This document shows, in pieces, positions 37,410-40,344 of a stretch of DNA of 64,000 nt. Both the position numbers and the translations under genes were made by a program. Position 1 is the first letter of the stretch; each line of letters opens with the position of its first letter. The notes under the pieces are model-generated. The model was not told where the DNA came from and did not search any database. It saw only the letters and a program-made list of their open reading frames with translations. Source of the stretch: Agriterribacter humi (lineage in GTDB: Bacteria; Bacteroidota; Bacteroidia; Chitinophagales; Chitinophagaceae); NCBI RefSeq assembly GCF_009192765.1, contig NZ_VOHQ01000004.1, positions 186,001 through 250,000 on the forward strand. The letters are read 5' to 3'.

Positions 37410-38243
37410 ATGCAATTTGCCCGATGTATATTCTTATCTGCATGTGTTGTACTATTTCACAGCGCAGCACTATCTCAAACACAGGATAACTACCAACTCG
37501 TATGGAATGATGAATTTGATATCAATGGCGCCCCCGATTCAACAAAATGGAATTATGAAAAAGGTTTTGTACGCAATGAGGAATTACAATGGTACCAGCC
37601 CGAAAATGCCCGTTGTGAAAAGGGCATGCTGATCATTGAAGCACGGCGGGAACAAAAATCCAATCCGATATATGAACCGGGCAGTGATAACTGGCGAAAG
37701 AAAAGACCAACTGTGCAATATACTTCTTCATGCCTGATCACCAAAGAAAAACAGAGCTGGCAGTATGGTCGTTTTGAAATGCGGGCACGCATTGATATTG
37801 ACCCCGGTATGTGGCCAGCCTGGTGGACGCTGGGGGTAGAAAAACGCTGGCCTGAGAATGGTGAAATAGACATCATGGAATATTACCGCGAAATACTTTT
37901 AGCGAATATTCTTTGTCGTGGTAAAAACAATTCCAATGAATGGCATACTACCAAAACAAGTGTACAAAAATTAGGGGGCGCTGCGTGGGCCGGAAAGTTC
38001 CACACCTGGCGTATGGACTGGACAGAAGAATACATAGCTTTATTTGTAGATGATTCACTGCTGAATAAAGTAGCAGTAAAGGATCTGGTAAATAAGGATG
38101 GCAGCGGATTCAATCCTTTTAAACAACCGCACTACATGCTGCTGAACCTTGCCATTGGCGGGCAAAATGGTGGTGATCCGCAGCACACTGCATTTCCAAA
38201 ACAGATGGAGGTGGATTATGTGCGGGTGTGGGGCAAGAAGTAA
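37410..38243 (+). CDS. Secreted GH16 family beta-glucanase
   Basis: 277 residues with a signal peptide (CIFLSACVVLFHSAALSQ). The GH16 catalytic motif ENGEIDIMEYY lies near residue 150 (ExDxxE; nucleophile and acid/base glutamates). WNDEFDINGAPDSTKWNYE and KQPHYMLLNLAIGG are typical family segments. Likely substrates are laminarin- or lichenan-type beta-1,3(4)-glucans. Subfamily and bond specificity cannot be fixed by eye. No SusCD genes adjoin it. Confidence 0.93.
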   Translation: MQFARCIFLSACVVLFHSAALSQTQDNYQLVWNDEFDINGAPDSTKWNYEKGFVRNEELQWYQPENARCEKGMLIIEARREQKSNPIYEPGSDNWRKKRPTVQYTSSCLITKEKQSWQYGRFEMRARIDIDPGMWPAWWTLGVEKRWPENGEIDIMEYYREILLANILCRGKNNSNEWHTTKTSVQKLGGAAWAGKFHTWRMDWTEEYIALFVDDSLLNKVAVKDLVNKDGSGFNPFKQPHYMLLNLAIGGQNGGDPQHTAFPKQMEVDYVRVWGKK

Positions 38244-38246
38244 TTG

Positions 38247-38595
38247 TGATAAAATAGTACACCTGATGTTTCTACCGCTAATATAATTGATACTACCGGT
38301 ATATGATATTACGCCCCTTCAGGGCTATGCAGTTTAGTTCCTGATTATACGATGGACGATGTCCATCGTTAAGAGATTACGCCCCTTTGGGGCTCTGGCC
38401 AATCCCGCAGATTAGCCCTGAAGGGGCGTAATATCCATAACGTGGGGTGTAGCCCCTCGTTATAAAAGATGTGTTATGCTCATAATAACAGATTACACCG
38501 CAGATTAGCCCTGAATGGCGTAATATTCATAACGTGAAAGTAGCCCCTCGTATATTCTCCGAACGGTATCCCCGGATCGCGGAGTGTAGCCGATA
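38247..38595. repeat. REP-like palindrome array, left side of the RAYT gene
   Basis: The array contains ATTACGCCCCTTCAGGGCT (from 38309), GATTACGCCCCTTTGGGGCT (38375) and their inverted partner TTAGCCCTGAAGGGGCGTAA (38412). The unit CCGCAGATTAGCCCTGAA..GCGTAATAT.CATAACGTG..GTAGCCCCTCG is present twice (from about 38405 and 38499). The first 70 bp (from 38247: AAATAGTACACCTG..CCGCTAATATAATTGATACT) are repeated directly on the other side of the transposase gene. Confidence 0.8.
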
Positions 38596-39054
38596 TTAAT
38601 CCCACACATATCTCTCATCATAGTCCACATCATAGTAATTAAGATATTCCCTGTATTCATCCTGGAAGTTTTTCTTACTGTGGTGGGCATGCTGATTAGC
38701 GATATAAGCGATGACGACATCTGCCTCCGCGGGGTTAACAGAAAATGCACCGTATCCATTCTGCCAGTAAAAGTTACTTAATGATCTGTCTTTGGTTTTC
38801 ATCCATTTGGAGGAATGTGATTTTACTTCTTCCAGCAGTTTCATCAAAGCTATTTTTTGTGATAACCTGCAGAGCATATGAACATGATCTGTATAACCTC
38901 CGATTTTTATCGGCTGGCAATCCATGCTTTTGCAGATGCCGCCGAGATAACTGTGAAGTTCATCCTCATACGGAGGGTAAATAAGCGGCTGACGACACTT
39001 GGTGCTGAACACGATATGAACGTAATTTTTTACGAGCGACTGTCCCATATGCAT
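38596..39054 (-). CDS. RAYT / IS200-like Y1 (HUH) transposase
   Basis: 152 residues of the Y1 transposase fold: MGQSLVKNYVHIVFSTKCRQ, then the HUH metal-binding motif H57-V-H59 in GGYTDHVHMLCRL. Next comes KLLEEVKSHSSKWMKT, and a helix VIAYIANQHAHH whose Tyr is the likely nucleophile. It lacks a TnpB partner and sits inside REP-like palindromes, which defines a REP-associated tyrosine transposase (RAYT). Such enzymes nick single-stranded DNA at REP hairpins. The frame is intact. Confidence 0.88.
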   Translation of the reverse strand: MHMGQSLVKNYVHIVFSTKCRQPLIYPPYEDELHSYLGGICKSMDCQPIKIGGYTDHVHMLCRLSQKIALMKLLEEVKSHSSKWMKTKDRSLSNFYWQNGYGAFSVNPAEADVVIAYIANQHAHHSKKNFQDEYREYLNYYDVDYDERYVWD

Positions 39055-39063
39055 AAGTTAGCG

Positions 39064-39190
39064 ATGATAAAATAGTACACCTGTTGTCTCTGCCGCTAAT
39101 ATAATTGATACTACCGGTATATTACGCCCCTTCACGGTTCTGGCCAATCCCGCAGATTAGCCCTGAAGGAACATAATGTCCGTGGAATAT
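39064..39190. repeat. REP-like array, right side of the RAYT gene
   Basis: GATAAAATAGTACACCTG (39067) and CCGCTAATATAATTGATACT (39093) repeat the left flank, followed by ATTACGCCCCTTCACGGTTC and CCGCAGATTAGCCCTGAAGG. The pair of long direct flanks plus inverted hairpins makes a complete REP-RAYT unit of about 940 bp (38247-39190). Confidence 0.8.
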
Positions 39191-39198
39191 CGGATCCC

Positions 39199-40344
39199 CT
39201 ACACCCTCATCAGTCTTTCCACCGCCTTTTCCAGCGTCTCCTCTTTTTTACAAAAACAAAAACGCAGGACTTTGTTATCGATGGGAGTTCGGTAAAATGC
39301 GGAGACGGGGATAGTGGCTACACCATAATCTTTGGTAATGCGGATGGCAATATCTTTCTCCGCTTCATCGCTGAAATGACCATAGCTGCCCAAAATAAAA
39401 TAACTACCATGCGATTGATGCATATTAAATTTTGTATCCTTCATCAGTCGCAGAAAATAATCCCTTTTCTGCTGTATAAAAGCGCCCAGAAATTCATACT
39501 GGTCTTTTTGCTTTAAAAAAGAGGCAAGCGCCACCTGCTTGGGCGTATCGGTTGAAAAACAATTGAACTGATGCACTTTCCTGAATTCGGTCATAACAGC
39601 AGCAGGAGCTACACAATAGCCGATCTTCCAGCCTGTGCAGTGATAGATCTTGCCAAAAGAAAAACATACAAAGCTTCTCTCCAGCAAATCGGGGTAACGG
39701 AGCATACTCTGGTGCGGCAATGCATCAAATATTATATGCTCGTATACTTCATCGCTTAGTATAAAAATATCCGTTCCGGTAACGAGCGTTCTTAATGCTT
39801 CTATATCTTGTTGTCGCAATATGGCGCCCGTTGGGTTATGCGGCGAATTGAGCATGATCATTCGGGTGCGCGGAGTAACGGCTTTGCGCACCGCATCCCA
39901 GTTAATGGAATAATTGGGATACTGTAAGGGAATGAGTACAGGGGTAGCATCGTTAACCAGCACATTGGGTATATAGCTGTCGTAGCCCGGCTGAAAAATG
40001 ATGACCTCATCGCCCGGCTGCAATACACTTGTAAGCGCTGTATAAATAGCATAGGTTCCGCCGGGTGTTATGGTAATTTCGGTATCAGCATGTATATTTG
40101 ATCCATACAGGTTTGCTATCTTTTCCGCGAGTACTTCACGCAGTGGCAGGTAACCATTCATGTGGGTGTACTGGTTATATCCCTTTTGCATGGCTTCATT
40201 TACTTTTGCAATCAGTTCTTCATTCATGTCAAAATCCGGAAAGCCCTGGCCAAGGTTTACCGCATTGTGTTCCTTTGCCAGGGAACTCATCACCGTAAAA
40301 ATGGTTGTACCCACTTCCGGAAGTTTGGAGATTATAGATGGCAT
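39199..40344 (-). CDS. Methionine aminotransferase-like class I PLP aminotransferase
   Basis: 381 residues. The PLP lysine is in SFGKIYHCTGWKIGY near residue 233; other class I segments are NLGQGFPDFDMNEELIAKVN, NSPHNPTGAILRQQDIEAL and LSDEVYEHIIFDALPHQSM. The last is very like YbdL/KAT-type methionine or kynurenine aminotransferases. It would transfer the amino group between methionine or aromatic amino acids and 2-oxo acids. The next minus-strand gene is far away, so it is probably single. Confidence 0.9.
   Translation of the reverse strand: MPSIISKLPEVGTTIFTVMSSLAKEHNAVNLGQGFPDFDMNEELIAKVNEAMQKGYNQYTHMNGYLPLREVLAEKIANLYGSNIHADTEITITPGGTYAIYTALTSVLQPGDEVIIFQPGYDSYIPNVLVNDATPVLIPLQYPNYSINWDAVRKAVTPRTRMIMLNSPHNPTGAILRQQDIEALRTLVTGTDIFILSDEVYEHIIFDALPHQSMLRYPDLLERSFVCFSFGKIYHCTGWKIGYCVAPAAVMTEFRKVHQFNCFSTDTPKQVALASFLKQKDQYEFLGAFIQQKRDYFLRLMKDTKFNMHQSHGSYFILGSYGHFSDEAEKDIAIRITKDYGVATIPVSAFYRTPIDNKVLRFCFCKKEETLEKAVERLMRV

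Follow-up and report, generated by a model that had tools for sequence, protein, structure and literature searches.

In IS200/IS605 insertion sequences, terminal hairpins lying in the same direction bound the gene. REPtrons, which belong to class 2, comprise one chromosomal gene framed by palindromes, with inverted pairs and with copies in the genomes of relatives (PMC8266576, in its accessible part), and TIRtrons comprise a Y1 gene (TIRYT) flanked by non-GTAG-REP repeats, with long terminal inverted repeats (Di Nocera et al. 2013, PMC3733652, likewise in part). According to the accessible part of Quentin et al. 2018 (PMC6006769), 20 of 26 TIRYT fall in subclass 2.1. Table 1 of that paper gives TnpA subclass 1.2 the motifs DH[IV]H, WQ and YIKNQKEHH and enters 'no' under REP; these proteins of about 150 aa, which have a C-terminal domain specific to the subclass and are present in few copies in Bacteroidetes and Cyanobacteria, are described as generally without typical terminal IS200 structures. 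The literature searched records no REP partner for subclass 1.2, and another report from Bacteroidota, in its accessible part, concerns a RayT gene near abeS in Chryseobacterium (PMC11194056).

A catalogued RNA family also bears on this locus. RF01687 (Acido-Lenti-1 RNA) is listed as probably an RNA, from Acidobacteria and Lentisphaerae, in Table 1 of Weinberg et al. 2010 (PMC2864571). In the accessible text of that paper 'transpos' occurs in the name of another motif, and we found no link between RF01687 and a transposase in the literature searched. Its function was still called little known in 2026 by a paper whose accessible part places Acido-Lenti-1 copies downstream of Tannerella forsythia proteases and suggests that they regulate them (PMC13298647), and multiple copies are annotated in Vibrio anguillarum (PMC10059132, in part).

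Here we describe a unit at positions 38247-39181 of the window, the whole 64,000-nucleotide stretch of DNA that was analysed. Its neighbours, both assigned by Pfam, are a GH16 gene whose end is at 38243 and a convergent aminotransferase gene at 39199-40344. We consider it likely that this is a REPtron-like unit built round a TnpA of subclass 1.2, with a compound repeat, hpA-hpB-hpA, as presumed substrate, and that this repeat is of the RF01687 kind. The features of the unit are given below, with scores from R1, a covariance model of the compound repeat.

38247-38304, plus strand: left 58-bp direct repeat A, whose only other copy in the genome is its partner A'
38303-38375, plus strand: 73-bp segment equal to one hpA-hpB unit, in the left array and missing from the right
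38306-38396, plus strand: complete hpA-hpB-hpA repeat unit (R1 77.3 bits, E 5.7e-16)
38308-38326, plus strand: hpA copy 1 (ATTACGCCCCTTCAGGGCT)
38349-38369, plus strand: hpB, perfect 9-bp stem with a 3-nt loop
38376-38394, plus strand: hpA copy 2, perfect 5-bp stem with a TTT loop
38412-38526, minus strand: second hpA-hpB-hpA unit, partly decayed (R1 44.7 bits, E 1.3e-8)
38414-38432, minus strand: hpA copy 3, inverted relative to copy 2 and 19 nt from it, a REPIN-like pair
near 38506 and near 39159, both minus strand: degenerate hpA copies
38596-39054, minus strand: tnpA, intact HUH/Y1 gene of 152 aa (Pfam Y1_Tnp, E 1e-24)
39065-39122, plus strand: right 58-bp direct repeat A', 95% identical to A
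39121-39181, plus strand: right array, with hpA on the plus strand at 39121 and a decayed hpA on the minus strand at 39159, 87% identical to 38376-38436

The intact Y1 transposase with an HVH motif and a tyrosine that an earlier note on this DNA had read from the sequence is confirmed by the Y1_Tnp match and by the conservation of the catalytic residues. Across an alignment of 23 sequences, made up of the window and 22 relatives, H56, H58, Y116, Q120, H123 and H124 do not vary; nor do DHVH and W96-Q97, apart from the D of DHVH, which is nearly invariant. The HuH and Y---Q--HH motifs are present in 81 of 81 proteins, those of the window and of the named relatives (the best 80 of 520 tnpA loci, 71-81% identical to the window), and the tnpA relatives share a conserved C-terminal tail, YDERYVWD. 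A conserved MGQSL start suggests that the gene begins at 39048. The predicted model of the protein (mean pLDDT 83) is closest to the TnpA of IS608 and ISDra2 (Z about 14-15) and next to the TnpAREP-hairpin complex 4er8 of the E. coli enzyme (Z 9.6); structural matches below the Y1 family (Z <9) were taken as a common arrangement only. Given that tnpA encodes an HUH/Y1 protein, its product is probably a single-strand nuclease.

The earlier description of the gene as a RAYT does not hold in the strict sense. The NCBIfam model REP_Tyr_transpos gives 21 bits, under its cut-off of 80, whereas the NCBIfam IS200/IS605 model passes (71 bits, cut-off 55), and the catalytic motif is Y---Q--HH, not the Y---NP of class 2. 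DHVH, WQ and Y---Q--HH are the motifs of subclass 1.2, and the single copy and the distribution of relatives (73 Bacteroidota among the best 80 of 520) agree with the low copy number and host range of that subclass. Table 1 of PMC6006769 has 'no' for REP in this subclass, whereas every close relative that we examined has hairpin repeats. The likeness to REPtrons lies in the single chromosomal gene framed by palindromes, the inverted pairs and the copies in relatives' genomes; unlike REPtrons, the unit has no Y---NP motif and no GT[AG]G at the hairpin foot, where TAT stands instead, and it combines two hairpin kinds per unit, with a 3-nt loop. A RAYT gene is flanked by REPs that also occur elsewhere, and this is what relatives of the window show, its own genome holding one divergent unit only. 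With IS608 and ISDra2 the locus shares the HUH/Y1 fold, the catalytic residues and hairpins near the gene, and it departs from IS200/IS605 in its single copy, its inverted hairpins in arrays and the lack of a companion transposon gene among the listed ORFs. TIRtrons resemble it as Y1 genes flanked by non-GTAG-REP repeats and differ in their long terminal inverted repeats.

The palindromes claimed from the sequence are present, at 38308(+), 38376(+), 38414(-) and 39121(+), and both folding and a covariance model built without the window place them beyond chance. Folded as single-stranded DNA, 38302-38396 has a z of -4.8 and 38372-38436 of -6.9, with 0 of 200 shuffles as stable. The right array (39117-39181) folds poorly (z -1.1, 27 of 200 shuffles as stable) and is decayed. 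The second hairpin kind, hpB at 38349-38369, was absent from the first description. Each hairpin array is preceded by one copy of the 58-bp direct repeat, and a further 61-bp repeat (87%) follows A and A', at 38376 and 39121. Direct repeats of about 70 bp had been placed at 38247 and 39067; they exist, but at 58 bp and 95% identity, with the second at 39065. When left and right arrays are aligned, they show point differences and one 73-bp hpA-hpB unit and otherwise match; the direct repeats are a duplicated array whose left copy is longer by that unit. We considered target-site duplications and rejected them: the repeats measure 58 bp and form part of the arrays, between which there is a difference of one repeat unit.

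In the compound repeat, hpA is a conserved hairpin with a 5-bp stem and a 3-nt loop, following TAT, and the full unit runs from hpA through a covarying hpB to another hpA about 68 bp on, some 90-110 nt in all. Over 435 hpA sites the foot reads TAT-NN-C (75, 95 and 95% at three positions), and at 154 of them (35%) a perfect stem of at least 6 bp ends 6-18 nt upstream, compared with 1.6% in shuffles and 5% when the mirrored side, downstream, is searched; these sites near tnpA show 106 distinct hpB sequences. Same-strand hpA pairs 62-76 bp apart, picked without regard to hpB, occur at 71 of the 80 named loci (best 80 of 520), the picked pair lying within 1 kb of tnpA in 70 of the 71. In the hpB alignment of these 71 units, 12 of 17 pairs vary on both sides and 93.5% of cells pair, against 82.2% when shuffled; covariation reaches 0.312 against 0.106 shuffled, a value attained by 0 of 500 shuffles, and sliding the partners destroys the signal. 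Covariation extends to the loop-closing pair of hpA, which is Watson-Crick in 383 of 443 cases where 276 are expected. The sequence of hpB is free to change provided that pairing is kept. Covariation does not distinguish pairing in DNA from pairing in RNA. R1, built from the 71 relatives' units with the window left out, finds units at 29 of 29 family-sample tnpA loci, some of them probably of the same species as rows of R1, and at 1 of 27 control loci; this sole positive control, L017, was brought in by a related pattern.

That the transposase-like gene and the palindromes belong together, as first proposed for this locus, is what the relatives bear out. By title, the best 80 of 520 are 73 Bacteroidota, 3 Ignavibacteria, 1 Chlorobiaceae and 3 methanotroph bins. 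With at most two mismatches allowed in 12 fixed positions, hpA stands no more than 500 bp from tnpA at every one of the 80 (best 80 of 520). The loci are kin by descent and some are probably of the same species, so that neither these counts nor the p values represent independent events. Matches number 472 in 76.7 kb near tnpA and 14 in 194.6 kb far from it, a far stretch being available for 79 of these 80 named loci (best 80 of 520). Counts of 9-mers made without any pattern spell the same hairpin: CCCTTTCAG stands near tnpA at 70 loci (best 80 of 520) and is missing from all of the far stretches. On both sides of the gene the nearest hpA faces outward (upstream, minus strand 64 against 9; downstream, plus strand 58 against 6; best 80 of 520). 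The family sample gives a similar picture, with hpA within 500 bp of tnpA in 29 of 30 loci, the window included, and 166 matches in the 98.6 kb of these 30 whole loci compared with 9 in the 107.6 kb of 31 control loci.

More distant tnpA genes (36-42% identity) carry Y---Q--HH at 19 of 20 loci. Their flanks hold perfect hairpins of at least 7 bp with a 3-nt loop at 1.56 per kb, where two controls give 0.03 and 0.04 per kb, and hairpins of their own, mostly of other sequences, stand at 12 of the 20 loci only. Given these other hairpins, the association probably extends to more of subclass 1.2, with each branch having its own hairpin. A tree of the 81 proteins fits taxonomy poorly: two separate placements are needed to account for the three methanotroph rows, and those from Ignavibacteria form one group. 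Transfer between lineages is suggested, with support too weak for dating, as the bootstrap of the tree is unsettled. We also note that distant subclass 1.2 genes (L291-L310, L004, L006) have other 7-bp hairpins in their flanks, ATGTCCCGTAGGGACAT and GTGTTCCGCTGGAACAC among them, with a spacing that is often about 50 bp, that some tnpA paralogues in the window's own genome have such other 7-bp hairpins too, and that long tandem hairpin arrays with periods of about 65, 47 and 24 bp stand near tnpA at L042, L051 and L169.

Within the window's own genome, the repeat is nearly unique to this site, an outcome that the earlier note had named as counting against its reading. With at most two mismatches the palindrome occurs at this locus only, with three its matches elsewhere are no more than those of the reversed control, and the 58-bp flank occurs at this locus only, six other rows being matches of 14-19 bases. 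R1 finds one divergent unit elsewhere (C29:13851-13923, 38.1 bits, E 3.5e-5), between convergent PPIase and MTHFR genes. We also considered whether flank A is part of a common element and rejected this, since A and A' have no match in the other loci compared and A has none in the rest of the genome. With its one locus, one divergent unit elsewhere and decayed right array, the unit looks quiet in this genome.

Further copies are found in relatives, and it is from relatives that the link to tnpA comes. The exact hpA core, CGCCCYTTYRGGGCT, is present in 61 of 394 family genomes, with up to 36 copies each; its reversed control gives 11 matches in 10 of these genomes. Of the 32 genomes that have a close tnpA (at E 1e-40 or better, a threshold chosen after seeing the gap in the list), 29 contain the core, against 32 of 362 without (Fisher p 1e-23); some of these 29 have no copies besides those beside tnpA itself. 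The 32 family genomes that have the core without a close tnpA count against our explanation. In the window's genus, R1 finds units at E 0.1 or better in 9 of 12 genomes, the window's among them, and the fetched loci of this genus include seven with a tnpA of 32-37% identity and one, in G395, of 74.7%. As to the mobility of single repeats, copies in G732, G551 and G504 share longer flanks, and for that reason clear repeat ends could not be fixed.

In the consensus of RF01687, a 12-nt linker joins an 8-bp hairpin to a 5-bp one, which has a UUC loop and is followed by U; this corresponds to hpB followed by hpA. In the window it matches 38350-38394, which is hpB with hpA copy 2, at 25.5 bits (E 0.003), short of the curated cut-off of 37 bits; the alignment spans all 46 positions, and the two-hairpin architecture, the 12-nt linker and the 3-nt loop are present. 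Over the cut-off there are 19 matches at 10 of the 80 named loci (best 80 of 520), all within about 560 bp of tnpA, and none at the other 70, which, like the low score of the window's unit, counts against our explanation; no other Rfam family passes its cut-off in the 447 kb around tnpA in the best 80 of 520. The likeness lies in this architecture and the difference in the description of the family, in Table 1 of PMC2864571, as a probable RNA of Acidobacteria and Lentisphaerae. In our explanation, the window-type repeat is of the same kind as RF01687.

A scan of 375 phylum genomes points the same way. It scored up to 16 RF01687 and up to 10 tnpA candidates per genome, which makes absences soft and copy numbers minimum values, and it covers Bacteroidota, whereas the family was defined in Acidobacteria and Lentisphaerae. 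RF01687 at E 1e-5 or better is found in at least 48 of the 375 genomes, in 35 over the cut-off, and in 0 of 14 control genomes; tnpA (profile E 1e-25) is found in at least 152. The gene is present in 34 of the 48 RF01687 genomes compared with 118 of 327 without RF01687 (p 7e-6, absences being soft), and part of this genome-level link, as of that for hpA, comes from hairpins at the tnpA locus itself. Fourteen of the 48, 13 of them in one genus, have RF01687 without tnpA and speak against our explanation (absences again soft). Genus g147 holds 17 RF01687 genomes (1.5-3.3 Mb), with tnpA at E 1e-25 in 4 only, subject to the same softness of absences, and would be a case of repeats without the presumed enzyme; outside g147, 30 of 31 RF01687 genomes have tnpA. 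Among the 116 RF01687 matches listed for genomes with a listed tnpA, 19 fall no farther than about 1 kb from the gene, in 9 genomes, where 0.13 are expected. R1, which models the upstream hpA too, finds 26 of the 30 top RF01687 loci. Simple matching places an upstream hpA at only 13 of the 30, a point against our explanation, and gives 2 of 30 in the downstream control direction. This suggests that the 'RNA' RF01687 is really DNA cut by such an enzyme. For the Acido-Lenti-1 copies of Tannerella forsythia and Vibrio anguillarum, a REP reading would be an alternative.

The competing explanation that survives best, though we hold it to be improbable, is that RF01687 and hpA-hpB-hpA act as RNA, in ending transcription, stabilizing mRNA or as a small RNA, with tnpA a mere spreader or incidental. 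The entry in Table 1 of Weinberg et al. 2010 speaks for it, as does the intergenic position of hairpins such as the divergent unit between the PPIase and MTHFR genes, and the covariation fits DNA and RNA pairing alike. The outward orientation, the tandem units and the co-location with tnpA, however, are predictions of a nuclease substrate.

The history of the site can be followed in the window's genus. The stop codons of the GH16 and aminotransferase genes are only 18 bp apart in G394 and 24 bp apart in G336, with no unit between them, so something was inserted or lost here. At the same site G310, the closest same-genus genome by aminotransferase (87%), has a broken tnpA piece (window 38639-38882, 80%, 28 gap positions) and no array; the other 8 of the 12 genus members have no GH16 neighbour in the stretch compared and are uninformative. 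We rejected a recent arrival of the unit as unlikely, because G310 keeps its broken gene piece at this site. Most simply, the unit would have entered before the window's genome and G310 split, and then decayed in G310. A second REP-like palindrome, CCTGCCCGA...TTCAGGCGGGC, lies inside the tnpA remnant of G310 (L087) and is also present in L097.

The idea that the whole 940-bp unit moves finds nothing to show for it: the genome lacks another copy of the whole unit, the flank is unmatched in the other loci compared, and the arrays differ by one hpA-hpB unit, as would be expected from duplication within an array. An ordinary IS200/IS605 insertion sequence, in which the hpA copies would be the left and right ends and the whole 0.94-kb unit would transpose, is a reading to which we give slightly less credence than to the RNA one. 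The passing IS200 model, the closest folds (IS608 and ISDra2 TnpA) and the gaps of 18 and 24 bp in G394 and G336, where something was inserted or lost, are all compatible with it. Yet near-identical copies are missing from a genome that holds one copy and whose best tnpA paralogue is at 40%, no second transposon gene stands alongside among the listed ORFs, and the nearest hpA copies face outward on both sides in place of the same direction (best 80 of 520). Nor did we find the expected mobile carriers: 152 pattern stretches in viral contigs include none confirmed as a tnpA relative, and plasmids and phages have none at 60% or above. The 73-bp unit difference inside the arrays also speaks against it.

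Type I restriction genes lie near tnpA in some relatives. In G395 (L320, L328 and L334) the unit lies between hsdS and hsdR. Homologues of HsdS and/or HsdR occur in the flanking stretch compared, up to 3 kb on each side, at 23 of the 80 named loci (best 80 of 520) and at 0 of 27 controls; both genes are present at 13 of these loci, with tnpA between them in 12 (best 80 of 520). Pfam finds Methylase_S in two of the four restriction proteins tested and EcoEI_R_C/HSDR_N in the other two. Across hosts, HsdR shares 54-100% identity with its G395 counterpart, in most cases 71-88%, and for this reason the tnpA cassette may be carried along with the restriction system. Beside the copy in the window stand GH16 and aminotransferase genes, not restriction genes, and a search for a defence role gave no PADLOC match. 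That tnpA and the hairpins merely gather in recombination-prone places such as type I restriction operons, with no mutual action, has the 23 loci of the best 80 of 520 in its favour and is very improbable, given that 57 of the 80 have no such gene there, that all 80 have hairpins, and that the window's unit sits between the GH16 and aminotransferase genes.

We return to the REPtron-like unit with its presumed substrate. Binding and cleavage by TnpA, mobility of the repeats and any host function are what we infer from these patterns. TnpA would bind hpA while the strand is single, on the lagging strand or in a transcription bubble, and would cut next to it through Tyr116; cutting and rejoining could then add, remove or occasionally disperse repeat units.

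On a wider proposal our judgement is evenly balanced. In it, RF01687 would be the DNA substrate, and not an RNA gene family, of an overlooked REP branch in subclass 1.2 that has its own hairpin in each sub-branch, is spread over Bacteroidota, Ignavibacteria, Chlorobi and methanotrophs, and has settled time and again between hsdS and hsdR, with the operon perhaps being reshaped as a result. The analysis gives the catalogued structured 'RNA' RF01687 a testable identity and would add REP partners to subclass 1.2, which Table 1 of PMC6006769 lists with none. Annotations that class such repeats as non-coding RNAs, or that have them regulate the genes alongside, may deserve re-examination. In subclass 1.2 an IS200-like protein of class 1 occurs in a REP arrangement, and the subclass may therefore reveal how the transposase of an insertion sequence turns into a settled enzyme of the chromosome.
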